From NCBI RefSeq assembly GCF_001434575.1, contig NZ_AZDA01000058.1, positions 1-37,647 on the forward strand: DNA of 37,647 bases. The letters are read 5' to 3'. This DNA comes from Loigolactobacillus bifermentans DSM 20003 (GTDB taxonomy: Bacteria; Bacillota; Bacilli; Lactobacillales; Lactobacillaceae). The position numbers were made by a program, and so were the translations under genes. Below the pieces are notes generated by a model. That model was not told the DNA's origin. It saw only the letters and a program-made list of their open reading frames with translations, and searched no databases. The stretch's first letter is position 1. Every line of letters begins with the position of its first letter. Shown here piece by piece: positions 5,828 to 23,807 of this stretch.

Positions 5828-6595
5828 TTAACGGCCAGTTCCTGGCCAGATCAATAACGTGATTTGATAGGTTTGTGTCACCTGAAGTTGCTGTTGCTGC
5901 TGAAAAAGCGCCGCTAGTTCAGGCAATACCGTCTGTTGCTGTTGAAAATTTAATAAAGGTAGTACTGCGGCTTGTAACTCAGCTTGCGTCCAAGTCTCTG
6001 TCACCGGAAAGTGCCATTGCCAGTGTCGAAACGCAATGTCAGCGTGTTGTAATTGGCGCTGATAAGCCGTCATCATTGCCAAATCTGGCAATGTTTCAAA
6101 CAAGGCAGGTTGCTGAAACCGCCGGGCCAGTGGGGCAAAAAAATCATCCGTTTGGCCAGTAACCCGACTTAACGCAACAGTTTGCCGAGCAAGACGACTA
6201 AAAGCTGCTAACTGGGCCGGTGCCAAATCTGGCAACATATGTGCAAAGACTAAGTCTGCAATAGGTCGCCGCTGCGTCAACAATGAAGACACGGCCCGGC
6301 GCTGCGTCTTCAGATTGGTCACTTGCCGTTGCCGGGCCAGCTGTTCAGCATACTGCAACATCACAGCTGAAAAATCATAAATCGTCACCTGTTGGGCAGC
6401 TTGTGCAAATGGAACTGCAAAACGGCCAGCACCGCCACCAATATCTGCCACTGTGTGATTTTGCAACAGCCCACTTGCTTGTAGCACTTGCTGAATTGCA
6501 GCCACAAAAGGCAATTGACTGGCTTGCTGGGCCGCAACATAGTCTGGCGCAAATGCATCCCAATCGGCTGCTGCGCGTTGCTCATCTGGGGTCAT
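5828..6595 (-). CDS. Class I SAM-dependent methyltransferase
   Basis: A 255-residue UbiE/COQ5-like methyltransferase. Motif I, the SAM-binding glycine loop, is VADIGGGAGRF (49-59), followed by an acidic residue ending beta-2 (TIYDFSA) and a motif IV-like DLVFAHMLPDL. The substrate is unknown. The ATG at 6595 is preceded by AAGGTGA at good spacing. It has its own promoter and is the first gene of a two-gene unit with the MarR regulator. The C-terminal ~100 residues are rich in Gln and match no motif I recognise. Confidence 0.82.
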   Translation of the reverse strand: MTPDEQRAAADWDAFAPDYVAAQQASQLPFVAAIQQVLQASGLLQNHTVADIGGGAGRFAVPFAQAAQQVTIYDFSAVMLQYAEQLARQRQVTNLKTQRRAVSSLLTQRRPIADLVFAHMLPDLAPAQLAAFSRLARQTVALSRVTGQTDDFFAPLARRFQQPALFETLPDLAMMTAYQRQLQHADIAFRHWQWHFPVTETWTQAELQAAVLPLLNFQQQQTVLPELAALFQQQQQLQVTQTYQITLLIWPGTGR

Positions 6596-6628
6596 ACGTC
6601 ACCTTCACTGTTTAAAATTGCCTCTTTA

Positions 6629-6657
6629 AGATTACGTACTTTTCGGCTAAAATGCAA
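6629..6657 (-). promoter_or_regulatory. Promoter of the methyltransferase-marR unit
   Basis: -35 TTGCAT (6652-6657), 17-bp spacer, -10 TAATCT (6629-6634). Confidence 0.65.
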
Positions 6658-6683
6658 TCTTATTTTTGCATTGATCCCTGTAA

Positions 6684-6710
6684 CAAAAAAAGCCGCCATT
6701 CGACGACTTT
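6684..6710 (-). terminator. copY terminator
   Basis: A 9-bp stem (6689-6697 with 6702-6710, two G-U) is followed on the minus strand by a T tract. It overlaps the copY stop codon by 2 bp and separates copY from the methyltransferase. Confidence 0.85.
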
Positions 6711-7149
6711 AGTTGCAATGACATTCACCTGGCACACAGTTACACATCACATGTTCCGGTGCTGTCTTGGCTTTTTCAGCGAGTTGCTGTTGTAACAACT
6801 GAATATCACCTTGACTCAAGGTCACATGCGCCAATAAATGGCTTAGCGCCTGTCCAGAACGCATGCGACACAAATGGTCAAACAAGGTGGTGGTGGCGTA
6901 ATCCATGGCTTGTTGTTCCTCAACCAATGGCGTGTACGTAAATGCCCGGCCATTACGCGTTGCATTTAAAGCACCTTTTTTCACTAATCGGCCAATCAAT
7001 GTTTTTGTTGTTGCAGCCTTCCAACCCATTTTTTCAGCTAACACATCGATCAATTTACGACTGGTTACCGCGCCTAACGTCCAAACCGCACGCATGACTT
7101 CCCATTCCGCATCGCTGATCTCTGCAACCGCTTGTTTTTCAACTACCAT
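6709..7149 (-). CDS. copY: CopY-type copper-responsive repressor
   Basis: A 146-residue BlaI/MecI/CopY-family repressor: an N-terminal winged helix (about 10-75, SDAEWEVMRAVW then ATTKTLIGRLVKKGAL) and, at the C-terminus, the diagnostic metal motif CxCxxxxCxC (C136, C138, C143, C145). In CopY, Zn2+ at this site favours DNA binding and Cu+ displaces it, releasing the operator. The start is ATG 7149 with AGGAGG at 7158-7163. A cop box lies in a promoter 370 bp upstream, so it is probably autoregulated. Unusually, no copA, copB or copZ gene lies next to it and a terminator follows directly, so its main targets must be elsewhere. Its ribosome binding site lies inside a conserved repeat hairpin. 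Confidence 0.95.
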   Translation of the reverse strand: MVVEKQAVAEISDAEWEVMRAVWTLGAVTSRKLIDVLAEKMGWKAATTKTLIGRLVKKGALNATRNGRAFTYTPLVEEQQAMDYATTTLFDHLCRMRSGQALSHLLAHVTLSQGDIQLLQQQLAEKAKTAPEHVMCNCVPGECHCN

Positions 7150-7157
7150 TTTAAAAA

Positions 7158-7256
7158 CCTCCTAAATACATTAGGGTTAGATTTTGCTTCTGCAAAATCT
7201 GATTTTCGGAGGATGACCAGTCTTGTGGGGGCAATTCACCCCGCAGGACTCATGGC
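7158..7256. repeat. Structured ~98-bp repeat, copy 1 (overlaps copY RBS)
   Basis: Two hairpins. Hairpin 1 has base CCTCC/GGAGG (7158-7162, 7208-7212) and top AGATTTTGC/GCAAAATCT (7179-7187, 7192-7200). Hairpin 2 has arms 7219-7230 and 7239-7250 (12 bp with two G-U). It ends in CATGGC. Read on the minus strand, the first arm is the copY Shine-Dalgarno AGGAGG. Confidence 0.85.
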
Positions 7257-7353
7257 CCTCCTAAATGCGCTAAGATCTATTTTGCTTTTGCAAAATTTCA
7301 CTTTGAAGACGAACCATTCCATCGGACAAAAACCGTCACGATGGAAACATGGC
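7257..7353. repeat. Structured ~98-bp repeat, copy 2
   Basis: Directly abuts copy 1, starting CCTCCT and ending CATGGC. Hairpin 1 keeps ATTTTGC/GCAAAAT but has a degenerate base. Hairpin 2 has perfect arms TTCCATCG/CGATGGAA (7317-7324, 7339-7346). Confidence 0.85.
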
Positions 7354-7451
7354 GGCACCTCGGTTCTCTAAGGTTAGATTTTGCCTTCGCAAAATCTATT
7401 TCGGTGCATGTCCATTCCATCGGACGAAGACCGTCACGATGGAAACATGGC
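7354..7451. repeat. Structured ~98-bp repeat, copy 3
   Basis: Third tandem copy. The base of hairpin 1 has changed on both sides to GCACC/GGTGC. The top AGATTTTGC/GCAAAATCT is intact (7376-7384, 7389-7397). Hairpin 2 is as in copy 2. It ends in CATGGC and is followed by a further TCCTCC. Confidence 0.85.
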
Positions 7452-11765: not shown

Positions 11766-12929
11766 TTAATTTTGTGATTGCACGTAAGCTGTTAAACGCG
11801 CAACGGCTTTTTCAAGATTTTCCATGCTCGCAGCATAACTGATCCGCACGTAACCTTCCCCACCAGCACCGAATGAAATGCCAGGAATCAAAGCTAATTT
11901 TTGCGTCTTGGCTAATTCACGTACAAAAGTCCAAGAATCTTGTGGGCAGTTGGCTGGGATCTTCGCAAATAAGTAGAAGGCCCCATCTGGACGCGCCATC
12001 TTAAAGCCTAAAGGTTCAAGCGCGCCGATCAAGTAATCACGACGGGCAATATATTGCTTGGCCATGACTTGGCTATCTTCTTTCCCATTGGTCACAGCTT
12101 CTAAAGCTGCATATTGCACAATCGTGGTTGGCGCCGTCACCATGTATTGATGGGTTTTGATTACTTCATCCACCACTGCAGTTGGGGCCAACAAGAAGCC
12201 GACCCGCCAGCCTGTCATGGCATGGGACTTCGATAAACCATTGATCACAATGACTTGATCCGGAATAAAGTTGGCTAAAGATTCATGGGGTTCGCTGTAA
12301 GATAATTCCGCATAAACCTCATCACTGATCACCCAAAGTTGATTTTGCTTGATCACTTCAGCCAAACCAGCCAGTTCGTCATGGTTATAAGTGACCCCAG
12401 TTGGGTTGTTCGGGTAGTTCAAAACAATCGCCTTAAAGTTGGCTTCTGGATGCGCTGTAATCGTCGCTTGTAACCGTTCTGGGGTTAAGACAAAGCCATC
12501 CGCACTGGTATCAATAAAGATCACTTGACCATGATCTAAGAACGTGTCTGGAATATAAATTGGGAAAATTGGGGTGGGGATCAACACCACATCATCTGGA
12601 TTCACAATGGCCTGTAAGGCTGCTGCGATACCTTCTGTGGCCCCAACCGTGGTAATGACATTTTCGGCCTTGTAATGCCAGTCAAACTTTTCATTATAAT
12701 AAGCGGCCGCGGCTTCACGTAAAGCTGGGATCCCAGGATTTGGTGTGTAGTGGGATTGGTTGTCCTTGATTGCCTGAATGGCAGCTTCTTTCACGTGTTC
12801 TGGTGTGTTAAAATCAGGTTCCCCTAAGGTTAATTTAACCATACCAGGCACTTGGCTGACTTCGTTATCGAATTGACGAATATCGGACACAGCAATTTTT
12901 TTAACAATCTCATTAAAATCTTCGCGCAA
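11766..12929 (-). CDS. araT: Aromatic amino acid aminotransferase (AraT-like)
   Basis: A 387-residue fold-type I PLP aminotransferase that exchanges amino groups between aromatic (and often branched-chain or Met) amino acids and 2-oxo acids. The PLP lysine is in NGLSKSHAMTGWRVG. Other landmarks are LTLGEPDFNTPEHV (substrate loop), NYPNNPTGVTY, SDEVYAEL (Asp for the PLP nitrogen) and the carboxylate arginine in GYVRISYAAS. It closely resembles lactococcal AraT as I remember it. PatA is an alternative label. The start is TTG 12929 with AGGGAG 4 nt upstream; no in-frame ATG precedes conserved sequence. Monocistronic with a TATAAT promoter. Confidence 0.88.
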   Translation of the reverse strand: MREDFNEIVKKIAVSDIRQFDNEVSQVPGMVKLTLGEPDFNTPEHVKEAAIQAIKDNQSHYTPNPGIPALREAAAAYYNEKFDWHYKAENVITTVGATEGIAAALQAIVNPDDVVLIPTPIFPIYIPDTFLDHGQVIFIDTSADGFVLTPERLQATITAHPEANFKAIVLNYPNNPTGVTYNHDELAGLAEVIKQNQLWVISDEVYAELSYSEPHESLANFIPDQVIVINGLSKSHAMTGWRVGFLLAPTAVVDEVIKTHQYMVTAPTTIVQYAALEAVTNGKEDSQVMAKQYIARRDYLIGALEPLGFKMARPDGAFYLFAKIPANCPQDSWTFVRELAKTQKLALIPGISFGAGGEGYVRISYAASMENLEKAVARLTAYVQSQN

Positions 12930-12964
12930 ATTTCTCCCTACTTTCTTAATTCCTTTTAATAAAC

Positions 12965-12970
12965 ATTATA
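12965..12970 (-). promoter_or_regulatory. araT promoter -10
   Basis: Perfect TATAAT; the -35 about 17 bp upstream is poor (CCTGAA). Confidence 0.5.
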
Positions 12971-13021
12971 CCCGTTGTGGCTAAAAATTCAGGCCTTTTC
13001 TTAAAGTTTTTTGTGAAAAGC

Positions 13022-13060
13022 AAAAAAGTGGTGCGCTTTCTGAAAAAGGGCACCACTTTT
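13022..13060 (-). terminator. Terminator of the nrd operon
   Basis: Perfect 11-bp stem AAAAGTGGTGC (13024-13034 with 13050-13060) followed on the minus strand by TTTTTTG, 70 bp beyond the nrdF stop. Confidence 0.88.
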
Positions 13061-13130
13061 AGGTTTACTTTTAAAATGGCATCATCACTTAAATAGCCTG
13101 CTAAGCGGTGACACGCATGCATGTGGATGC

Positions 13131-14081
13131 TTAAAAATCGTAATCACTTTCAGTCATTTCTTCAGCATTCCCCATTAAATAGCCTGCCCCGACTTGTGAG
13201 AAAAAGTCGTGATTCGCTGTTTCTGTGGAAATCCCATTCATCACGATAGGGTTAATGTCCTTAAGTTCAGCGTTGGGAAAACGTGAATCAAAGCCCATAT
13301 TTTGCAAAGCCTTGTTGGCATTATAATGGACAAACTGCTTCACATCTGCTGCTAAACCAATGGGCGCATAAACTTCTTCAGTAAAGGCAAATTCATTTTC
13401 CAATAAATCGTCCAAGAGATCATCCATCCACTTTTTAAAGGTCTTTTGTTCTGCAGCAGGTAATTCATTAAACCCTAATTGGAACTTATAGCCTAAATAA
13501 GTGCCATGGACGGATTCATCCCGAATGACCAATTTAATAATTTCCGACAAATTAGCCAGCTTATTATTGCCCCGGTACCACAAAGGCGTAAAGAAGTTGG
13601 TGTAATACAAAATACCTTCTAAAAAGACACTGGCGACTTTCTTTTCCAAGTTGTTGCCAGACTGATAAATATCGTTGATCCGCTTGGCCTTATACTGCAT
13701 CCGTGGGTTATTGTTCATCCACTCAAAGACTTCATTGACCGTCGCTTGATCATTTAAAGACGTTAAGATCGTGCCATAACTTTTGGCGTGGATCGACTCC
13801 ATCATTAAGAAATCATTGATCACCGCCGCCTCTTTACGCGTCCGAACATCTGGACGCATGACATCGACACCTTCTTCAGACTGTAAAGTGTCCAATAATG
13901 CCAAGCCGCCAACAACCTTGTTGATCACTGATTTTTCAGTATCGGATAAGGTGCGCCAATCGCGTAAATCATTGGAAACCGGTACCCGGGTGTCCAACCA
14001 ATACTGTGCTGTGGCTTTGTCCCAAACATATTCATCAAATTCATCTTCGATTTTATCCCAATTAACTGTTTGATAGCTCAT
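13131..14081 (-). CDS. nrdF: Class Ib ribonucleotide reductase beta subunit NrdF (active form)
   Basis: A 316-residue radical-generating subunit. All six metal ligands occur at family spacing: D64, E95, H98, E155, E189 and H192, with radical tyrosine Y102 (IHAKSYGTI). The C-terminal tail ESDYDF is the NrdE-docking segment with its radical-relay tyrosine. It should carry a di-Mn or di-Fe tyrosyl cofactor assembled with NrdI and pass the radical to NrdE. ATG 14081 has AAAAGGA 9 nt upstream and begins 18 bp after the stop of the paralogous gene. It is last in the nrdI-nrdE-nrdF'-nrdF operon. Confidence 0.96.
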   Translation of the reverse strand: MSYQTVNWDKIEDEFDEYVWDKATAQYWLDTRVPVSNDLRDWRTLSDTEKSVINKVVGGLALLDTLQSEEGVDVMRPDVRTRKEAAVINDFLMMESIHAKSYGTILTSLNDQATVNEVFEWMNNNPRMQYKAKRINDIYQSGNNLEKKVASVFLEGILYYTNFFTPLWYRGNNKLANLSEIIKLVIRDESVHGTYLGYKFQLGFNELPAAEQKTFKKWMDDLLDDLLENEFAFTEEVYAPIGLAADVKQFVHYNANKALQNMGFDSRFPNAELKDINPIVMNGISTETANHDFFSQVGAGYLMGNAEEMTESDYDF

Positions 14082-14099
14082 TTCAACGCGTCCTTTTCT

Positions 14100-15026
14100 T
14101 TAAAAGTCGTAATCGTCATCCGTCATGACTTCTAAGTCAGCCGGATGATTTGCGGCGGTTACTTGTTGGCGGAACTGATCCTGATCAATGGCAATGTGCG
14201 CTAACTTGGTCACAAATGGTGCTGGTGTCACACTATAGCTAGCACTTAAGCCTAAGGCAGCCAAAGTTTGGTTAACCCCGTAACGGCATAGGTTAAGCGC
14301 CGCTTCAGCGTCCTCACAAGTTGCACTTAAATAATCAGCTTCCAAATTTACCAACCGGTTAAATTGCTGGGTGATCCAGGCGGTTAAATCAGCTTGGGCC
14401 GAAGGGGCTAACTCGTTAAAGCCTAACTGAAATTTATAACCTAAGTAAGCACAGAAAATGGCGCTTCCTTGCAAAATGTTGTGCAGCATTTGATTGGTAT
14501 TTGGTAACGTGGTTTGTTGCAAAACGGTTGCGTATTTGCCAAAGGATAAGGCCGTTTCCGTTAACATAAACAACGCCTTTTTCTGTAACGGGGTACCTGA
14601 TTGACAAACCGCCGTTAATTGCTCGATTTCCGCTTGTAATTGTGGATCCGCATCAGCCCAGTCAAAGAAGGTTTGGCTTTTCCCAGGAACTAACGCCCGG
14701 AAAATCGTCGTACAGCTTTTGGCATGAACGGACTTCATAAAGGTGATCGTGTTCAGCACCGCTTCTTCTTGTTGGGTACGCTTATCGTGGCGTAAGGCCG
14801 GTGTCCCCACTTCTGATTGAAAAACAGCTAATAACGAACTAGCAGCCAATTGCTGACCAATTTGCTGTTGGGCTGCTGTAGGCAACTGCGCCCAATTCGG
14901 TTGGTCATTGGTTACCGGTACCCGAATATCCAGCCAAAAATTAGTGGTTAATTGCTCCCAAGTGTATTTATCAACGTTATCTTCAATTTCATCCCAGTTA
15001 ATTGCTTTGTAATATAAGTAGCTCAT
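14100..15026 (-). CDS. NrdF-like paralog lacking metal ligands and radical tyrosine
   Basis: A 308-residue NrdF homologue lying between nrdE and nrdF. It aligns with the neighbouring NrdF along its whole length, including an identical YLGYKFQLGFNEL and the same tail pattern MTxxDYDF. Of six metal ligands it keeps only H101 and E157; the others are replaced: Asp to A67, Glu to K98, Glu to S188, His to F191. The radical tyrosine is C105. It cannot form the usual cofactor but keeps the NrdE-docking tail, so a structural or chaperone-like role in a mixed beta-beta' dimer is likely, as for yeast Rnr4. The ATG at 15026 is preferred (AAAGGTGA upstream, MSY start as in NrdF) over ATG 15041. The frame is intact, with no sign of decay. 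Confidence 0.9.
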   Translation of the reverse strand: MSYLYYKAINWDEIEDNVDKYTWEQLTTNFWLDIRVPVTNDQPNWAQLPTAAQQQIGQQLAASSLLAVFQSEVGTPALRHDKRTQQEEAVLNTITFMKSVHAKSCTTIFRALVPGKSQTFFDWADADPQLQAEIEQLTAVCQSGTPLQKKALFMLTETALSFGKYATVLQQTTLPNTNQMLHNILQGSAIFCAYLGYKFQLGFNELAPSAQADLTAWITQQFNRLVNLEADYLSATCEDAEAALNLCRYGVNQTLAALGLSASYSVTPAPFVTKLAHIAIDQDQFRQQVTAANHPADLEVMTDDDYDF

Positions 15027-15045
15027 GTTGTCACCTTTCATCCTG

Positions 15046-17211
15046 CTAAATCATGCAAGCTTCGCATTCATTGGCGGTTTTGATTTCGTCATCTTCTGTA
15101 AATGTTCGAATGTAATACAAGGACTTGATTCCTTTGGTCCAGGCATAATTGCGCAACCGGTTAAGATCCCGGGTAGTCATTTTCAACTGTTGATCATCTT
15201 TCCATTCATACAAGCCAGCTGGTAAAACCGAGCGCATAAATAACGTCAAGCTCATGCCTTGGTCAATATGCTTTTGGGCCACTGCATACGTGTCGATGAT
15301 CTTCCGTTGATCAATATCATAGGCCGGTTGGTAATATGGCATGGTAGCGTTGGACAAATAAGGGGCTGGGTAAAAAATCGACCCTACTTTATTTTCTTGC
15401 CGTTGCTCAACTAATTGTGTAATTGGGTGCAGTGAGGCACTGGTTTCATTCACATAAGAAATTGAGCCATTCGGGGCAACTGCTAGCCGATTACGATGGT
15501 ACAGGCCGTCTTGCATGACAGCCTGCTTTAAGGCTTGCCAGTCAGCGACTGTTGGCAATTTGACGGTTTCAAAAATCGCAGCCACTTTTTGGCTCTTAAA
15601 CTGAAAATCAGACTGTAAATATTGATCAAAGTAACGCCCATTGGCATAATCTGAAGCTTCAAAGTCCGCAAAAGTGGTCTGCCGTTCTAAAGCAATTTGA
15701 TGACTGGTAACCAAAGAATAATAATTTAATGCCATGAAATAAGCATCTGTAAATTCCAAAGCTTCTGGGGAACCATATTCGATTTGATGGCGGGCTAGTG
15801 CTGTATGTAAGCCCATGGCACCTAACCCAATGGTATGGTACAGTGCATTCCCGTGTTGGATCGTTGGCACTTGCCGAATATTCGTGGTATCGGTCACCAT
15901 GGTCAATGCCCGAACCGCAACGGCCACCGAATGACCAAAATCCGGAGAATCCAGCATATTCATGATATTCGTCGAACCGAGGTTACACGAAATATCAGTT
16001 CCTACCGTTTCGTAGGCCAAGTCTTCATCCAACTGCGATGGTGTTTGCGGTTGTAAGATTTCACTACACAAATTACTCATTAAGATCCGTCCAGCCACTG
16101 GATTCGTACGATTAGCTGTATCAATATTTAAAATATACGGGTAGCCAGATTCCTGTTGTAATTGCGAAATTTTTTGTTCTAATTCGCGGGCATTAATGGC
16201 CGTTTTTTTGATTTTCGGATTCGCTACCAGCTGATCGTATTCTGCTGTAATATCCAGATAGGCAAAAGGTTGCTGATATTCTCGTTCCACATCATACGGA
16301 CTAAATAAGTACATCGGTTGATTGGTTTTAAGCAATTCATAGTACTTATCTGGTACGATCAACCCTAACGATAACGTCTTGACCCGAATTTTTTCATCAG
16401 CATTTTCTTTTTTAGTTTCCAGAAAATGTAAAATATCAGGATGGAACACGTTTAAATAAACGACACCGGCACCGTTCCGTTGTCCTAATTGATTGCTATA
16501 ACTAAAGGAATCTTCCAATAGTTTCATAACGGGCACCACGCCAGAAGACGCATTGGCAATTTTTTTAATGGGATCGCCAGCAGCTCGTAAGTTCGACAAA
16601 TTCACGCCAACTCCACCACCGATTCGTGACAGTTGTAAAGCAGAATTCACACTGCGGCCAATTGATAACATCGAATCAGCCATGTCGATCAAGAAGCAAG
16701 ACACCATTTCACCGCGCCGCTTTTTACCGGCATTTAAGAAAGTTGGTGTCGCTGGTTGATAACGTTGGGCAATTAATTCATCAGCGATCTCGCTGGCCAA
16801 TTTGGCATCTCCATGACCAAGGTACAGCGCATTAAACGCCACCCGCTGGGTAAAATCTTCTAAAAATTCTGAACCATCATTGGTTTTCATCGCATATTGG
16901 GTATAAAACTTATAAGCGCCTAAAAAGCTCCGAAACCGGAAATGTTTGGTTTTTAAAGTGGTAAAAAGTTGTTCAATAAATGCAGGTGTATATTGCGCCA
17001 ACACCTCTGGATCAATGTAATCCGCCTGTACCAAATAGTCTAAGCGAGCCTGTAATGATTCAAATTGTTTGGTCCGCGGCAACACTTCTTCTTTGAAGTA
17101 AGCGCGCAACGCTTCTTGGTCGTAATACAGTGGAATCTCACCGTCAACGGGAATGTTGACTAAGTTATTTAAATAAAAATATGTTTTTTCCATTTGTGGG
17201 GTACTGGTCAT
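15046..17211 (-). CDS. nrdE: Class Ib ribonucleotide reductase alpha subunit NrdE
   Basis: A 721-residue catalytic subunit that reduces ribonucleoside diphosphates. Active-site landmarks: redox cysteine pair C172 (MVSCFLI) and C409 (ISCNLGS), the N380-C382-E384 group in NLCSEI with the thiyl cysteine, radical-relay tyrosines Y699-Y700 (SLYYIRT), and the C-terminal shuttle pair C716/C719 (ECEACMI). There is no N-terminal ATP cone, as usual for class Ib. The frame extends upstream to 17244, but AGGAGG 8 nt before ATG 17211 fixes the start. It begins 2 bp after the nrdI stop. No nrdH is present in the operon. Confidence 0.96.
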   Translation of the reverse strand: MTSTPQMEKTYFYLNNLVNIPVDGEIPLYYDQEALRAYFKEEVLPRTKQFESLQARLDYLVQADYIDPEVLAQYTPAFIEQLFTTLKTKHFRFRSFLGAYKFYTQYAMKTNDGSEFLEDFTQRVAFNALYLGHGDAKLASEIADELIAQRYQPATPTFLNAGKKRRGEMVSCFLIDMADSMLSIGRSVNSALQLSRIGGGVGVNLSNLRAAGDPIKKIANASSGVVPVMKLLEDSFSYSNQLGQRNGAGVVYLNVFHPDILHFLETKKENADEKIRVKTLSLGLIVPDKYYELLKTNQPMYLFSPYDVEREYQQPFAYLDITAEYDQLVANPKIKKTAINARELEQKISQLQQESGYPYILNIDTANRTNPVAGRILMSNLCSEILQPQTPSQLDEDLAYETVGTDISCNLGSTNIMNMLDSPDFGHSVAVAVRALTMVTDTTNIRQVPTIQHGNALYHTIGLGAMGLHTALARHQIEYGSPEALEFTDAYFMALNYYSLVTSHQIALERQTTFADFEASDYANGRYFDQYLQSDFQFKSQKVAAIFETVKLPTVADWQALKQAVMQDGLYHRNRLAVAPNGSISYVNETSASLHPITQLVEQRQENKVGSIFYPAPYLSNATMPYYQPAYDIDQRKIIDTYAVAQKHIDQGMSLTLFMRSVLPAGLYEWKDDQQLKMTTRDLNRLRNYAWTKGIKSLYYIRTFTEDDEIKTANECEACMI

Positions 17212-17213
17212 GG

Positions 17214-17675
17214 CTAAGCCTCCTGTGCTGTAAATGCGGTGCACTGCTTTAAAATAATGTTGGCGATACGCGGTACATCACTTTTGGTGCCGCGCAATTC
17301 AAAATCAGTTAAGTATGGAAAACCGAACCGTTCAGCGTATTGTTTCGCCGTTAAGGCAAATTGCTTATTAAAGTTCCGATTACCACTGCCGATAATGCCA
17401 TAACAATGCTGATAATTTTGAGCAAAATCTAAATAAGTCCCGAGTTTGTTGGTTAAAATCTCGGTATACCCATTATCGACACCATTACCACCTTTTAAAA
17501 AGGTTGGTAAAAACGCCACAAAGGGGTCCGTTAAAGTCGTTGGTTCGGGATTCTCTTTCACATTGATCGCCTTTAAGACAATAGCTTGTGTGGCAAAATA
17601 ATCCGCTAGCCGCCCCATAAAATGCTTGGTGTTCCCTGTTAAGCTTATGTAAAGGACATTGATGCGCTTGGTCAT
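17214..17675 (-). CDS. nrdI: Class Ib ribonucleotide reductase flavodoxin NrdI
   Basis: A 153-residue FMN protein that supplies oxidant for assembly of the NrdF cofactor. The FMN phosphate loop is visible at the N-terminus (YISLTGNTKHF), with later flavin-contact segments FLPTFLKGGNGVDNG and GIIGSGNRNFN. First gene of the nrdI-nrdE-nrdF'-nrdF operon. The frame opens at a GTG at 17684, but ATG 17675 fits the family start (MTKRINVLYISLTGNT) and has GAGTGA just upstream. Confidence 0.95.
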   Translation of the reverse strand: MTKRINVLYISLTGNTKHFMGRLADYFATQAIVLKAINVKENPEPTTLTDPFVAFLPTFLKGGNGVDNGYTEILTNKLGTYLDFAQNYQHCYGIIGSGNRNFNKQFALTAKQYAERFGFPYLTDFELRGTKSDVPRIANIILKQCTAFTAQEA

Positions 17676-17687
17676 CGCTATCACTCA

Positions 17688-17734
17688 TTTCTATATATTG
17701 TGTGTATGAACTAATATAGCACAATATATAGAAT
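17688..17734 (-). promoter_or_regulatory. Two NrdR boxes in the nrd promoter region
   Basis: Two matches to the NrdR box ACACWATATATWGTGT: 17688-17703 (minus strand ACACAATATATAGAAA) and 17719-17734 (GCACAATATATAGAAT). Their centres are 31 bp apart, three helical turns, as needed for cooperative NrdR binding. The promoter itself is in this AT-rich stretch but cannot be assigned uniquely. Confidence 0.88.
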
Positions 17735-17864
17735 AGATATATAAGAATTGTTAAATTCAATTAGGAGATTCCCCTAATTATCGCTTCCATTCCCAAAAAC
17801 ACTGGGTTTTTAATGGCTAAATTTTTCATAAAAAACCATCAACCGATTTTACAAGTGCTTTCAA

Positions 17865-17893
17865 TTGCTAAATGTAATGTTTCAAGTTACAGT
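17865..17893 (+). promoter_or_regulatory. Promoter of the NAD(P)-binding protein gene
   Basis: -35 TTGCTA (17865-17870), 17-bp spacer, -10 TACAGT (17888-17893), followed by a small ACAG/CTGT inverted repeat. Confidence 0.6.
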
Positions 17894-17926
17894 TAAGCTG
17901 TTCATAAAACGAAAGGAAGTTTCGAC

Positions 17927-18571
17927 ATGCAAAATATTTTAATTTTAGGTGCTCACGGTAAAATCGCCCAACTCGCCACGAAGCTTTTTTTAGATCAAAC
18001 AGATGCCCACTTAACCCTTTTCTTACGCAACGCTAAGCGGCTAACCGCCGATGATCCAAAACGTGAAACCATCATTGAAGGCGATGCTGATAACGTTGCT
18101 GACCTGACCCAAGCCATGGCTGACAAAGATGTGGTTTATGCCAACTTAGCCGGTCATAATATCGAAGCCCAAGCCAAGGCCGTTGTGGCTGCCATGCGCA
18201 CAGCGCAGGTAAAACGTTTAATTTGGATCTCGACCCTGGGTATTTATGATGAAGTACCAGGTGCCTTCGGTCAGTGGAACCACCGCATGTTAGATGGCGG
18301 TTATTTGGAAACTTACGGCGCCGCTGCTAAGGTTTTAGAAGCTGCTGACGATTTGGATTACACCATTGTCCGGCCTGCTTGGTTGACCAATAATGATGAA
18401 ATTGATTATGAAACCACACAAAAAGGCGATGCCTTTAAAGGAACCGAAGTTTCTCGTAAAAGTATCGCCGCTTATGTGGTGACATTAGCCCAAGATCCAA
18501 CTGCTGAAGTGCATCACTCGGTTGGTGTCAACAAACCGAACACTGATGGTGACAAACCAGCTTGGTACTAA
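17927..18571 (+). CDS. NAD(P)H-binding protein, NmrA/atypical SDR family
   Basis: A 214-residue Rossmann-fold protein. The dinucleotide loop is LILGAHGKIAQ (5-15), followed by a basic residue after beta-2 (FLRNAKR), which suggests NADP(H). ISTLGIYDE (about 101-109) and VRPAWLTNN match the NAD(P)H-binding SDR_a5/NmrA-like group of quinone-reductase or redox-sensor homologues. AAAGGAAG precedes the ATG at 7-nt spacing. Monocistronic between a good promoter and terminator. Reaction unknown. Confidence 0.85.
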   Translation: MQNILILGAHGKIAQLATKLFLDQTDAHLTLFLRNAKRLTADDPKRETIIEGDADNVADLTQAMADKDVVYANLAGHNIEAQAKAVVAAMRTAQVKRLIWISTLGIYDEVPGAFGQWNHRMLDGGYLETYGAAAKVLEAADDLDYTIVRPAWLTNNDEIDYETTQKGDAFKGTEVSRKSIAAYVVTLAQDPTAEVHHSVGVNKPNTDGDKPAWY

Positions 18572-18586
18572 CGACTATTTCAAGCG

Positions 18587-18615
18587 CGCTCGCTGATGAT
18601 TCAGCGGGCGTTTTT
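18587..18615 (+). terminator. Terminator of the NAD(P)-binding protein gene
   Basis: A 10-bp stem (18587-18596 with 18601-18610, one G-U) and TTTTT. It overlaps the last codons of the convergent acetyltransferase gene. Confidence 0.88.
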
Positions 18616-19128
18616 GAGTGCTTTTTCCATGATCAAATCACGTTGGGCATCGGTGCCCAATTGAAAAACATGTGACCCAGTTTCATGAAAGCCCATGGCC
18701 TGGTAAAATTGATAGGCAGGCGTGTTATGTTCCCAAACGCCTAACCAGAGGCTTGATTTTTGCTGAGCCTGGGCTTGGCGAATAGCGTCGTTGATCAAGT
18801 ATCGGCCTAACCCTTGGCGTTTAAATGCTGATCGAATATAGATTCGTTCAACTTCTAGTGTTTGCGTCCCGCGTGGTTCAGACTGCGCTTGATCGACGTT
18901 CAGCTTTAGATAACCCGCCAACTGCTCATCCACGTACAACAATTGAAAGGTACTGCCAGCCGTCGCCAATTCTTGCTGTAATAAAGTGGGCGCATAGGCA
19001 GCTTGTAAATAGGTTTGCATGTTGTCCGGCGTATTAAACGCCCCAAAAGTATCAGTAAAGGTTTCAATACCAATAGCGCGTAACGTTTCAAGATCAGCCG
19101 CAGTTGCTTGTTTAAGTTGAATTGTCAT
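18601..19128 (-). CDS. GNAT N-acetyltransferase, PaiA-like
   Basis: A 175-residue acetyltransferase. Motif A region: LEVERIYIRSAFKRQGLGRYL with the acetyl-CoA loop KRQGLG. The C-terminal half, GVWEHNTPAYQFYQAMGF then GSHVFQLGTDAQRDLIMEK, resembles Bacillus PaiA spermidine/spermine acetyltransferases, so a polyamine substrate is possible but unproven. It lies 60 bp downstream of a PadR regulator on the same strand with a partial terminator hairpin between. ATG 19128 is preceded by AAAGTGA. Confidence 0.87.
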   Translation of the reverse strand: MTIQLKQATAADLETLRAIGIETFTDTFGAFNTPDNMQTYLQAAYAPTLLQQELATAGSTFQLLYVDEQLAGYLKLNVDQAQSEPRGTQTLEVERIYIRSAFKRQGLGRYLINDAIRQAQAQQKSSLWLGVWEHNTPAYQFYQAMGFHETGSHVFQLGTDAQRDLIMEKALKNAR

Positions 19129-19154
19129 TTAAATTCACTTTCCAATCACAAAAT

Positions 19155-19181
19155 AATCGCTACAGGTTGTCTGTAACGATT
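19155..19181 (-). terminator. Hairpin between padR and the acetyltransferase gene
   Basis: An 11-bp stem (19155-19165 with 19171-19181, one G-U in minus RNA) followed by ATTTTG. Probably a partial terminator or attenuator. Confidence 0.55.
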
Positions 19182-19188
19182 AAACGGA

Positions 19189-19707
19189 TCACTGATTTGT
19201 TTTTTGTAATTTTTGGTACCAATTTAAATCTGATTTTTGCAATGTTAAGCGATGTTGCAATAATTCCTGTTGTAATGCTGTCAGGTCGGTCACTTGTAAC
19301 GCTTTTTCCAAAGACTGGCATTCCTGTTCAAGATCTGCCACATGCTGTGCCAGTGACTGTGACAAAACGTCAGGCGCCACATCACTGGCTAATAATAGCC
19401 CTAACGCACTGGGTGACTGAAATTTATCCGGTTTGAGCAATTGTTTGGCCGCTAATTGTTTAAACAACGCCCGCCCTTGATCCGTGATCACATAGCTAGT
19501 TTTACTGACAAACGCATTTTTTGTCGGTAAATAGGCCGTCACGGCTAATGCGCCCATTTCCTCTAACACGTCGATATTATAATAAAAAGAACCTTTGGTA
19601 ATGGTAATAAACGCGTCATAGTGACGTTGTCGAATTAACTGTAACAGTTGGTAAGGATACGCTTCCCCCTGCGCGATAAATAAGCCGAGAATCAAAAGTT
19701 GCACCAT
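19189..19707 (-). CDS. PadR-family transcriptional regulator
   Basis: A 172-residue PadR regulator. The winged helix spans about residues 1-80 (LLILGLFIAQGEAYPYQLLQLI, then ITKGSFYYNIDVLEEMGALA). A predicted coiled-coil C-terminal part (about 110-170, LEQECQSLEKAL) makes the dimer. The frame opens at GTG 19728, but AAGGGGG lies 8 nt before ATG 19707 and gives the standard PadR start. Upstream of and probably partly co-transcribed with the PaiA-like gene, which it may control. Confidence 0.88.
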   Translation of the reverse strand: MVQLLILGLFIAQGEAYPYQLLQLIRQRHYDAFITITKGSFYYNIDVLEEMGALAVTAYLPTKNAFVSKTSYVITDQGRALFKQLAAKQLLKPDKFQSPSALGLLLASDVAPDVLSQSLAQHVADLEQECQSLEKALQVTDLTALQQELLQHRLTLQKSDLNWYQKLQKTNQ

Positions 19708-19742
19708 AGCAATGGCCCCCTTAAACACAAATCTTATCCCTT

Positions 19743-19748
19743 AGTATA
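19743..19748 (-). promoter_or_regulatory. padR promoter -10
   Basis: TATACT, with a weak -35 (TTTCAG) 17 bp upstream. Confidence 0.45.
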
Positions 19749-19845
19749 GCACGCTTCGGTCGGTTCTGAAAAACAGAGTCACCCCACGTTCACAGACAAC
19801 GCTCATCATATTGTTAGGTATTGTTAACTTTTTTTGAAACTAGTA

Positions 19846-19873
19846 TTGACTTTTTTCTGAAAAAGCTTATGAT
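19846..19873 (+). promoter_or_regulatory. mntH promoter
   Basis: -35 TTGACT (19846-19851), 16-bp spacer, -10 TATGAT (19868-19873). A CTTTTT/AAAAAG inverted repeat fills the spacer and could be a regulator site, for example for MntR; this is unproven. Confidence 0.7.
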
Positions 19874-19956
19874 ATAGTCGCAGTAAAAAGGACTCATTCA
19901 TTGAAGGCCTACTTGTCAGGCACTCAATTCTAAGCCAATAGAAAAGAGGGAACCAT

Positions 19957-21321
19957 TTGAAGAAGAAAGAAACACACGATAAGATGTTCGCCAGTACTGG
20001 CGGCGCACAAAAAAGTTTATCCGAAGTCAACGGTTCGGTAAACGTACCACAAAACGCTGGTTATTGGCGCACCTTACTTGCCTATACCGGTCCAGGCGCA
20101 TTAGTTGCCGTGGGGTATATGGACCCTGGGAACTGGATCACCTCAATCGCTGGTGGGGCGACTTACAAGTACACTTTGATCAGCGTGATTCTCCTATCCA
20201 GTTTGATTGCTATGTTGCTACAAGCCATGGCTGCTCGCTTAGGGATTGTGACTGGAAAAGATTTAGCCCAGCTTACCCGTGAGCGCACGTCTAAGGGAAT
20301 GGGAATCTTCCTGTGGATCATTACCGAACTTGCCATTATGGCCACCGATATTGCTGAAATTATCGGTTCTGGGATCGCCTTAGAATTATTATTTGGCTTC
20401 CCACTGATCGTCGGGATCACCATTACCGCATTCGACGTTTTAATTTTATTGTTACTCATGAAAATGGGCTTCCGTAAAATTGAAGCGATCGTTGCCACCT
20501 TGGTTGCTGTCATTTTATTTGTCTTCTTATATGAAGTCATTTTGGCCCAACCGAATGTCCCTGAAATTTTCAGAGGTTTCGTCCCAAGCACGCGGATCGT
20601 TTCAAATTCGTCCATGCTGTACTTAGCGCTAGGGATCGTTGGGGCAACGGTGATGCCGCACAACCTTTACTTAGGTTCCTCAATTTCACAAACACGCCGT
20701 ATCGACCGCAACAATGATGCGCACGTGGCCAAATCTATTCGGTTCACTGTGGCAGATTCCAACATTCAATTAACAGTTGCCTTCGTTGTCAACTGTCTCC
20801 TATTGATCTTAGGTGCCGCTTTGTTCTACGGCACACACAGTGATTTAGGCCGCTTCGTCGATTTGTATCACGCGTTAAGTGATTCAAAAATCGTTGGGGC
20901 CATTGCAAGCCCAGTCTTAAGTATGTTGTTTGCCATTGCGTTACTATCATCCGGTCAAAGCTCAACCATTACAGGTACCCTTTCTGGACAGATCATTATG
21001 GAAGGCTTCATCCACTTAAAAATGCCATTATGGGCGCAACGGCTGTTAACACGATTGTTATCCATTACACCTGTTTTAGGCTTTGCCATTTACTATCATG
21101 GTAATGAATCTAAAATCGAAAATCTTTTGACCTTCTCACAGGTTTTCTTAAGTATCGCATTACCATTTGCAATCGTCCCATTGGTTTTATTCACCAGTAA
21201 CAAAAAATTAATGGGCAATTTCGTTAACCACGCCTGGGTCAAGTACACGGCTTGGATCATTGCCATTATTTTGATTATTTTAAACTTCTGGTTGATTTTA
21301 CAAACCTTAGGCATCGCTTAA
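19957..21321 (+). CDS. mntH: NRAMP-family Mn2+/divalent metal transporter MntH
   Basis: A 454-residue proton-coupled manganese importer with about 11 membrane helices. The metal-binding DPGN motif is in [11 protein letters not shown] (helix 1) and the helix 6 motif in [14 protein letters not shown], both diagnostic. The start is TTG 19957 with AGAGGG at 6-nt spacing; an ATG ten codons later lacks a ribosome binding site. Monocistronic with a strong terminator. It complements the CDF exporter at the other end of the window. Lactobacilli depend strongly on Mn2+, and class Ib ribonucleotide reductase nearby can use it. Confidence 0.95.
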
Positions 21322-21324
21322 CGC

Positions 21325-21368
21325 AAAAAATACCAGCGTCCTTATCGCAAGGGCACTGGTATTTTTTT
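21325..21368 (+). terminator. mntH terminator
   Basis: AAATACCAG/CTGGTATTT plus CCTT/AAGG stem followed by a T tract. Confidence 0.9.
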
Positions 21369-21392
21369 GCTTTAGTAGGTGTTCAGCGCAAC

Positions 21393-21420
21393 AAAAAAGC
21401 CCGGCGATCGCCAAGGCTTT
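21393..21420 (-). terminator. Terminator of the 44-residue protein gene
   Basis: AAAGCC/GGCTTT base with inner GGC/GCC, followed on the minus strand by TTTTTTG. Confidence 0.82.
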
Positions 21421-21425
21421 ATGAC

Positions 21426-21560
21426 TTACTTGCTTTCTTTTTCAGCACGTTCTTTTAAGAAGTTCAAAACAGAAAGTGTATGTTCTTGTTGCTTTTTAAC
21501 GTTTGTATGGTTTGTTGGGCGGCGGTTGTTACCAACACCGGTATGATTGTTTTGGGCCAC
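21426..21560 (-). CDS. Small basic protein (44 residues)
   Basis: A 44-residue frame starting at GTG 21560 with a perfect AGGAGG at 8-nt spacing: MAQNNHTGVGNNRRPTNHTN..., ending KERAEKESK. The N-half is Asn/Thr/His-rich and probably disordered; the C-half (KKQQEHTLSVLNFLKERAEK) looks like one amphipathic helix. Function unknown. A near-consensus promoter and a terminator flank it, so it is very likely expressed. Confidence 0.72.
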   Translation of the reverse strand: MAQNNHTGVGNNRRPTNHTNVKKQQEHTLSVLNFLKERAEKESK

Positions 21561-21623
21561 GATCAAATCCTCCTCTCGCCTGACCTTATTTTGCCTAGAC
21601 TTTCCTAAGCATGACTACCCATT

Positions 21624-21652
21624 ATCATAACAATTTAAATATTACTTGACAA
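21624..21652 (-). promoter_or_regulatory. Promoter of the 44-residue protein gene
   Basis: -35 TTGTCA (21647-21652), 17-bp spacer, -10 TATGAT (21624-21629). Confidence 0.72.
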
Positions 21653-21773
21653 GCTAGAATTTGAATTTTCAGCAAATTATTGGAAAACGCCCTGTAAAAA
21701 TGGAAACCGTGGTAGACTTACAGCACATGATGAGCCATACTAGGCTTAGTTTTGTTTGAGAGGATTGTCAAAA

Positions 21774-23807
21774 ATGAAAACACCTACAGCAGTCCAACGC
21801 TTACGGCGAGTCTCTTTAGCAGGGATTTTAGTAACGCTTGGTATTGTCTACGGCGATATTGGGACATCGCCACTTTATGTTATGAATGCGATTATCGCAG
21901 ATGCTGGGGGCATGCGGCACTTAACCCCTGACTATATTATTGGTAGTATTTCACTGATTTTTTGGACCTTAATGCTGATCACAACTTTAAAATACGTCAT
22001 TATCGCCATGAAAGCCGATAACAATGGTGAAGGTGGTATTTTTGCCCTTTACGCCTTAGTCCGTCGGCGCGCAAAATGGCTGATTGTTCCAGCCTTAGTC
22101 GGTGGCGCGGCTATTTTAGCGGATGGCAGTTTAACCCCTGCGATGACCGTGACCAGTGCCATTGAAGGCTTAAAGGGGCAGCGCTTTGGCCAACTGATTT
22201 TTTCTGGAGACCAACACGTGGTGGTGATCATCACCATTGTGATCCTGGTGATCTTATTTATGATCCAGCGCTTTGGGACCAGCACGTTAGGCCAAGCTTT
22301 TGGGCCGATCATGCTGATTTGGTTTTTAATGCTCGGCTTGGTGGGTTTCTTTAACTTATTACCAAATCCAGAAGTCTTGAAGGCCTTATCCCCTGTTTAC
22401 GCGATCAAAGTCTTATTTGCGCCAACCAACAAAGTCGGTATTTTTATTTTAGGCAGTATTTTCCTAGCCACAACTGGTGCGGAAGCCTTGTATTCTGACA
22501 TGGGCCACGTTGGGAAATACAACATTTATTTTAGCTGGCCCTTTGTTTATGTCAGCCTTATGCTGAGCTACTTTGGGCAAGGTGCTTGGTTGATTCGAAA
22601 TCACATGGCCGTTGACCCAGCCACCAACCCATTCTTTGCAGTGATGCCTAACTTTTTGAAACTGATTGGTGTCATCATTGCAACGTTGGCCGCCATTATT
22701 GCTTCACAAGCGTTGATCACTGGCGCGTACACCTTGGTGGCCGAAGCCATGCGGCTGAAGATTTTACCACGCATGGTGATCAAGCATCCCAGCATGCAAT
22801 TTGGCCAGCTGTATATTGCAACGGTCAACTGGATCCTCTGTGCGATCACGTTAACCATTGTCGTATTATTCCAAACGTCTGCGCACATGGAAGCTGCGTA
22901 CGGTCTTGCCATCACAGTGACTATGTTAATGACGACCTTATTATTACATGAGTACTTAAGCACAAAATTCAACCGAATCTTCGCCACCAGTCTGATGATT
23001 TTCTTTGGTACGATTGAAACGATTTTCTTCCTGGCTAGCATTGTGAAGTTCACACATGGTGGCTACGTCACTGTGTTGATCACCTTAATGCTGGTCGCGG
23101 TGATGTACTTCTGGTATTTCGGGAATATTTTACGGGATCGCAATGAGCCTGAACGCGATCGGGTTTCCTTGCTGGCTTACCGCAATCAGTTGGTGGCTTT
23201 AAGCCATGATGACAGCATTCCGCTGTATGCCACGAATTTAGTTTACATGACCAAGGTTCGTGCCAACCATCAAATTAAGCGGTCAATGTTGTATTCTATT
23301 TTGGATAAGCGGCCTAAACGTGCCCAAGTTTATTGGTTTGTCACCGTCAACGTCACCAGTGAGCCTTATACGCGCGACTACTCCGTCGATATGATGGGCA
23401 CCCGCAATATTGCCAATGTCCAGATCTATTTAGGCTTCCGGCGTGAGCAACGAATCAACGCTTATCTGCGCCAAATTGTCGTGGATCTCATGCGCCAAGG
23501 TAAAATCGATCGACAACCACAAGACTACACGACCTTACCCAACCGGGATGTTGGGGACTTCTCCTTCGTTATTTTGCAGGAATGGTTATCCCCTGCAGCA
23601 GAAATTTCTAATTTCGACCGCTTTATTATCAACGGTCGGATCCGGCTTCAAAACTACACCGCCTCGCCAGTACAATGGTTTGGCCTAACGTTCTCGGATG
23701 TTGTTTTGGAAAACGTCCCATTACTACTGGGAAAACGTTCCGTTTTGAAATTGCACGAGATCTCTGAAGAAGAGCGGCAGCAGCTCGATCAAAACAGTAA
23801 TCAGTAA
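21774..23807 (+). CDS. kup: Kup-family K+/H+ symporter
   Basis: A 677-residue potassium uptake protein with about 12 membrane helices in the first ~440 residues and a long hydrophilic C-terminal region. The family signature [14 protein letters not shown] is near the N-terminus, and [18 protein letters not shown] follows. GAGAGGA lies 9 nt before ATG 21774; an in-frame TTG at 21756 would lie on the ribosome binding site. No clear terminator follows; a weak ATCTG/CAGAT hairpin at 23812 precedes A-rich sequence. No c-di-AMP riboswitch is recognisable upstream. Confidence 0.95.

Follow-up and report, generated by a model that had tools for sequence, protein, structure and literature searches.

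The R2 proteins of class Ie ribonucleotide reductases (the QSK and VPK types of Aerococcus, Mesoplasma, and Gardnerella) are relatives of NrdF in which metal ligands have been replaced, and they keep the aspartate and both histidines of the site. A paper on these proteins (PMC11846895) describes three replaced glutamates, a tyrosine converted to DOPA, and a working radical subunit. In yeast, according to two papers (PMC2704937, PMC3267527), Rnr4 has lost part of the metal ligands, has evolved faster than its partner, and is required alongside an intact R2. The original prediction for the locus described here, a window of 37,647 nucleotides (the whole stretch of DNA analysed) from Loigolactobacillus bifermentans DSM 20003, was that its nrd operon carries a second, cofactor-less NrdF, possibly forming a bacterial pair of the Rnr2/Rnr4 type. 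From sequence comparison and structural modeling, we favor, at a probability of roughly 0.6, a reading in which this protein, NrdF', would be the dedicated cofactor-less beta' subunit of an accessory class Ib reductase, paired with the NrdF of the same operon and docked on NrdE.

Open reading frames and family profiles place four genes on the minus strand in the order nrdI-nrdE-nrdF'-nrdF. The gene for the flavoprotein of cofactor assembly, nrdI (17214..17675), is listed from a GTG at 17684 and has an ATG at 17675, and nrdE (15046..17211), encoding the class Ib catalytic subunit (TIGR04170, 1081 bits; motifs present), is listed from a GTG at 17244 and has an ATG at 17211 preceded by AGGAGG. 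The frame of nrdF' is listed as 14100-15041; we set its start at the inner ATG at 15026 because of the N-termini of its relatives and the AAAGGTGA just upstream, giving a gene of 14100..15026 with a TAA at 14100-14102. One stop and six codons part it from nrdF (13131..14081), which lies in the same reading frame and encodes the partner class Ib NrdF (beta) of 316 residues, with all six ligands and the tyrosine present. An intact 308-residue NrdF paralogue does, as had been described, lie between nrdE and a normal nrdF, once the start is re-set. It aligns at 32% identity with its neighbor and at 36% with a third, ordinary NrdF of the genome, which is found with its own NrdE on contig C86. Judged by eye from its neighbors (a transporter and other metabolic open reading frames), the window looks chromosomal. 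Upstream of nrdI, at 17691..17731, lies a pair of NrdR-box-like sites, CTATATATTG and CAATATATAG on the plus strand, 31 nt apart, which match the NrdR box consensus; the pair has one exact match in the window and none in 100 shuffles. At identical spacing it recurs, among 131 loci, only in L087 from an Enterococcus plasmid, and the exact spaced pair is absent from L047, L089, and L090, which also extend upstream of nrdI. Two NrdR-like boxes 32 nt apart are present in L085 from a Lactococcus plasmid, where single boxes are common by chance (6 found, 3.1 expected). In both L085 (2685-3356) and L087 (3360-4031), a gene for a Crp/Fnr-family regulator is oriented divergently from the plasmid nrd operon.

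By family and fold, the window protein is an NrdF. It scores 135.9 bits against PF00268 (cut-off 33.6), and an AlphaFold model of NrdF' alone (23 rows; pLDDT 86.0, pTM 0.85, with the N-terminal 14 residues unsure) has as its nearest structure the NrdF of Streptococcus sanguinis, 4n83, with a TM-score of 0.89 on target. Against TIGR04171, the NCBIfam profile for class Ib NrdF with a cut-off of 355 bits, it reaches only 182.7, whereas the neighboring NrdF reaches 433.7. Four of the six ligands and the radical tyrosine of a class Ib NrdF are replaced. Alignment and a check of the codons agree with the substitutions that had been read from the sequence: A67 (14826..14828) stands opposite the ligand D64 of NrdF, K98 (14733..14735) opposite E95, and C105 (14712..14714) opposite the radical tyrosine Y102, while G187-S188-A-I-F191 (14454..14468) takes the place of D188-E189-S-V-H192, including the ligands E189 and H192. 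Only one histidine and one glutamate ligand are left, H101 and E157. The replacement of D188, the aspartate adjacent to E189, by G187 is a further loss that the original prediction had not listed. The protein ends in the tail MTDDDYDF (14103..14126), an operon-type DYxF end that, by analogy with NrdF tails, would dock on NrdE. The segment YLGYKFQLGFNEL is, as claimed, identical in NrdF' and NrdF of the window; since relatives do not keep YLGYKFQLGFNEL, it is no sign of a special role.

For a wider view of these residues, we tabulated 41 NrdF' frames (33 distinct), 41 partners (31 distinct), and 30 ordinary NrdF (28 distinct), the last picked by a BLAST score of 300-430 to the window NrdF; broken copies were left out, as were partner and ordinary frames of 300 residues or fewer. 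D64 is lost in all 33 distinct NrdF' sequences (A in 24, S in 5, T in 2, N and Y in one each), and so is D188 (G in 25, N in 8). The remaining positions vary: E95 is K in 18 and kept in 15, H98 is kept in 31 and N in 2, Y102 is kept in 18 and lost in 15, E155 is kept in 30 with D in 2 and N in one, E189 is kept in 8 and lost in 25, and H192 is F in 24, Y in one, and kept in 8. All these residues are kept in the partner and ordinary NrdF, with loss of D64 or D188 in 0/31 and 0/28. Every sequence retains the Trp of FWLD and the Tyr of the tail. The YNANK segment is kept in 31/31 partners and 28/28 ordinary NrdF, and its Lys in 4/33 NrdF'. A 34th NrdF' outside this set (L132, family f5) has D64A and D188N with the rest kept, beside a partner that keeps everything. 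It thereby resembles L091-L096, and in these seven members D64 and D188 are the only tabulated residues gone, the tyrosine and five ligands being kept, so that metal binding to some degree is possible in them. The frameshifted copy L117, read from its printed frames, has Glu at 64 and keeps D188, with E95, E155, E189, H192, and the tyrosine lost. We take D64 to be Asp84 of E. coli NrdB and D188 to be its Asp237, a link of the radical-transfer path; on these equivalences, the two common losses would impair both metal loading and radical transfer. The pattern across these sequences, two common losses with the remainder decayed by lineage, fits lost chemistry and not new chemistry. The losses in the window protein are not the product of a broken copy or of chance, as 33 distinct intact sequences, the window's included, are without D64. 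In intact relatives, the operon position and the losses of D64 and D188 are conserved, and the other ligands differ by lineage.

The distribution of NrdF' was followed from family to class. Among 397 genomes of the window's family (coded f1, and taken from the named plasmid matches to be Lactobacillaceae, order Lactobacillales), searched separately with NrdF' and with the neighboring NrdF, 27 intact NrdF' copies occur in 26 genomes from 11 of 40 genera, 23 of them at 60-100% identity and 4 at 43-46%, with the next matches by score, among those listed, at 36-40%. The partner NrdF clade occupies 27 places in the same 26 genomes at 80-100% identity to the window NrdF, the next listed matches standing at 58-61%. 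Every NrdF' of the family is directly upstream of a member of this one NrdF clade; the order NrdE, NrdF', NrdF is seen in the loci of 26 places, and in the 27th (G351:C2) NrdF' and NrdF are adjacent by coordinates. Neither NrdF' nor the partner occurs alone among the matches listed in the family, except in G133 (L133, G133:C23, about 113115-113276), where 53 residues from the end of a partner-type NrdF (75% identical) stand with neither NrdF' nor NrdE in the 4 kb fetched, probably as the remnant of a lost operon. In G014 (L117, G014:C21), both genes of the pair are frameshifted, the partner being about 71% identical. Each of the 26 genomes has at least three NrdF matches, and therefore a further NrdF, which makes the NrdF'-type reductase accessory. 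The paralogue is accordingly not the decaying property of a single strain, the outcome that the original prediction had named as refuting it, and broken copies are few.

Beyond the family, at least 15 of 395 genomes of the order carry the pair: five of f1, three of f3, six of f2 (L091-L096, five of them on contigs above 1 Mb), and one of f5 (G635, L132). The order search used E <= 1e-60, at which G635 gave two matches, its pair being found on a later check of the locus. In a class sample of 398 genomes searched at E <= 1e-50, no adjacent pair was found outside the window's own genome; given the precedent of G635, class members below this threshold could be missed. Two NrdF matches without a pair were found in G171, G224, G255, G400, G456, G178, G294, and G667. 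A single-protein scan of genome contigs with NrdF' gave no match, and the whole-genome searches took its place. Phage origin was rejected, as 296 phage records match and none reaches 60% identity; a one-strain event was likewise rejected, with NrdF' present in four coded families and on plasmids.

The plasmid search covered 72,556 records. For 164 of these, the best match to the window NrdF' is at 60-80%; 43 align with the full length of the Enterococcus lactis type at 56-100% (rows H136-H178), and 5 align at 95% or above with the E. faecalis type, so that up to 212 records carry NrdF', a sum of three sets that may overlap. The hosts are Lactiplantibacillus, Pediococcus, Latilactobacillus, Lactococcus, and Enterococcus, and at least two NrdF places are found in each of the 60, 43, and 5 such rows listed. 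In rows H2 and H57 of the 60, two genes are annotated under the NrdF' match, which is probably broken there. Six of the plasmid regions examined (L047, L085, L086, L087, L089, and L090) hold the pair, L086 being without annotation; nrdI is present in L047, L087, L089, and L090, as in the window, and none is annotated in L085. In L047, the Lactiplantibacillus plantarum plasmid Lp16E, the anaerobic reductase genes nrdD-nrdG lie beside nrdI-E-F'-F (12461-15576 and 17285-21892), with nrdE split over two frames. In L088, from the E. faecium plasmid p97_1_201kb (about 6001-7377), nrdI is followed by the beginning of an NrdF' that an IS30 transposase gene breaks off. For the Lactococcus lactis plasmid pGdh442, NrdE, NrdF, and NrdI have been listed as plasmid-borne (PMC3019208); its record, NC_009435, has a full-length NrdF' match and two NrdF places (H147), and the available excerpt of that paper does not mention a second, ligand-less NrdF. 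Most annotated plasmid rows listed are labeled "ribonucleotide-diphosphate reductase subunit beta", and NrdF' is therefore likely counted as an active enzyme.

The paralogue is under purifying selection in the two groups with several usable pairs. By the Nei-Gojobori method, dN/dS in the plasmid clade is 0.105 for NrdF' (88 pairs, left after removal of 17 that were saturated or too close) and 0.037 for the partner (77 pairs, 28 dropped), and in family f2 it is 0.134 for NrdF' (15 pairs) and 0.037 for the partner (14 pairs, one dropped). Two further groups with one usable pair each give 0.076 and 0.154 for NrdF' and 0.022 and 0.033 for the partners, and the last two groups have zero usable NrdF' pairs; in the window group, the sole usable NrdF' pair is a close one (dN 0.023), the window copy itself being saturated and too distant. 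Neither relaxed selection nor broken frames, the marks of a pseudogene, are seen in these two clades or in the 41 intact frames, and a pseudogene was rejected, the broken copies L088, L117, H2, and H57 lying outside the 41. Pairwise distances among 20 operons, computed for NrdF' and for NrdF, correlate at r = 0.94, a value that 0/5000 permutations reached; within one subclade (13 operons) the correlation is 0.93. This shows inheritance together, as for any two linked genes. In the tree, the partner NrdF form one clade with a support of 100/100, and NrdF' falls on one side of a branch with a support of 73/90, in two firm subclades whose deep joins are unsafe because the branches are long. Forcing NrdF' and NrdF into a single clade is 2.87 log units worse and not rejected (AU p 0.387). 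NrdF' may have arisen by duplication of the partner or of an ordinary NrdF, both being compatible with the tree test.

Several observations bear on whether the two proteins pair. The C-terminus DYxF is found in 33/33 NrdF' and 30/31 partner NrdF but in only 2/28 ordinary NrdF, and both proteins therefore look fitted to the NrdE of the operon. This agrees with the earlier proposal that chemistry was lost and the docking tail retained under selection, with D64 gone in every distinct sequence and dN/dS at about 0.10-0.13 where measurable. Across 14 operons, mean identity is 0.37 for NrdF' against 0.75 for NrdF, and by segment NrdF' keeps the N-terminus, helix A, and helix C and has let the remainder go. 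Only at the N-terminus is NrdF' the better conserved of the two, in 7/298 windows of 11 residues (starts 1-7); over residues 4-14, the fair comparison since most partner NrdF begin at aligned position 4, conservation is 0.76 against 0.43. In helix B it is 0.34 against 0.77. The NrdF of Bacillus anthracis is described as a dimer whose N-termini are markedly exchanged, with Pro71 of helix B lying in the core of its interface (PMC6754363). By analogy, the kept N-terminus supports a pairing of NrdF' with NrdF, and the poorly kept helix B speaks against it. At window NrdF positions 19, 21, 23, 91, and 97, in helices A and C, the partners have fixed residues unlike those of ordinary NrdF, and most NrdF' (70-100%) keep the ordinary residues; the partner may have re-fitted these helices to NrdF'. 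An AlphaFold2 model of the tandem NrdF'-NrdF (25 rows, 631 residues) has a mean pLDDT of 82.8 and a pTM of 0.84, a value that in our own judgement is above what we would expect for randomly placed domains, though AlphaFold may dock any two NrdF chains in the known way. The NrdF' half of this model probably rests on few rows, with single-gene NrdF' rows aligning to the NrdF half.

The simplest account of the strict pairing, the co-divergence, the shared tail, the kept N-terminus, and the abolished radical site is a beta-beta' dimer of NrdF' and the operon NrdF, in which the conserved N-terminus of NrdF' would swap into NrdF and the C-terminal tail of NrdF' would dock on NrdE in the same way as that of NrdF. 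The tyrosyl radical, assembled with NrdI, would then stand on NrdF alone, and the dead half would secure both the heterodimer and its complex with NrdE, perhaps stabilizing NrdF during assembly, so that the complex would have one radical site by design. As a counterpoint, the partner NrdF has its full set of ligands and could be active as a homodimer. Alternatively, NrdF' might act apart from NrdF, its own homodimer docking on NrdE by the tail as a decoy or brake on the accessory reductase, which would suit a tail end kept in 33/33 while the body of NrdF' diverges (0.37 against 0.75), the evidence for the proposed heterodimer being indirect. We regard this as unlikely, as conservation is concentrated in the N-terminus and helices A and C, the pairing and co-divergence point to NrdF and not only to NrdE, and one would expect a brake to have been lost now and then.

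Still less probable, in our view, is an assembly chaperone that acts on the NrdF cofactor together with NrdI and departs before turnover. The position of nrdF' directly before nrdF in 41/41 copies taken, the presence of nrdI in the window and in L047, L087, L089, and L090, and the statement in PMC2704937 that yeast Rnr4 stabilizes the Rnr2 cofactor would all suit such a role, but a chaperone acting only transiently would have no need of an NrdE-type tail so strictly conserved. That NrdF' carries out other redox or metal chemistry is a thought raised by L091-L096 and L132, in which only D64 and D188 are gone; the changes elsewhere (K for E95 in 18/33, N for H98 in 2/33, F or Y for H192 in 25/33, and the tyrosine lost in 15/33) leave no substitute set common to all, and we think it very improbable. 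We find it hardly credible that NrdF' is a leftover duplicate that travels with the operon, in spite of its fast evolution and the copies broken by IS30 (L088), by a frameshift (L117), or into two genes (H2 and H57), in view of the dN/dS of 0.10-0.13 in two clades, the 41 intact frames, and the spread over four coded families and plasmids; in L117, moreover, NrdF is frameshifted as well as NrdF'. Returning to the beta-beta' reading, we would put it at slightly better than even that the operon encodes a distinct bacterial class I reductase, with an obligate beta-beta' that is independent of yeast Rnr2/Rnr4, had become fixed by the time the operon dispersed across the order, is now carried on plasmids of lactic acid bacteria, and enforces one radical site per complex. 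If so, it would be the second, independent ligand-less partner after that of yeast, and an R2 with two subunits and one radical would then look like a recurrent solution and not a yeast oddity. Half-site working in class I reductases would also become testable with small bacterial proteins, from an operon found on many plasmids of food bacteria.

In the open-licence PMC literature, which excludes most subscription papers, we found no report of a bacterial cofactor-less beta' subunit. With the class Ib NrdF of S. sanguinis (4n83), NrdF' shares the fold, the nrdI/nrdE context, and the tail; it differs in having no metal and radical site and in falling below the NCBIfam class Ib cut-off. Membership in class Ie was rejected, in keeping with the original prediction: in class Ie, three glutamates are replaced and the tyrosine becomes DOPA (PMC11846895), whereas the window NrdF' has lost Asp and His, has not kept the tyrosine (gone also in 15/33), and has a normal NrdF alongside, with the Asp lost in 33/33 and H192 in 25/33. 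The closer likeness is to the yeast class Ia pair Rnr2/Rnr4, described in the papers cited above as a beta-beta' with a ligand-losing R2 paralogue that keeps the fold and evolves faster than its partner; here, too, a ligand-less R2 paralogue stands beside an intact R2 and is under selection. NrdF' differs from Rnr4 in belonging to a bacterial class Ib system, in being operon-encoded with nrdI and often plasmid-borne, and in the ligands lost, three iron-coordinating residues being reported as changed in Rnr4 and four ligands being replaced in the window NrdF', and its heterodimer is a predicted one. NrdF' presumably has an origin separate from that of Rnr4, the likeness between the two being one of function and not of descent.
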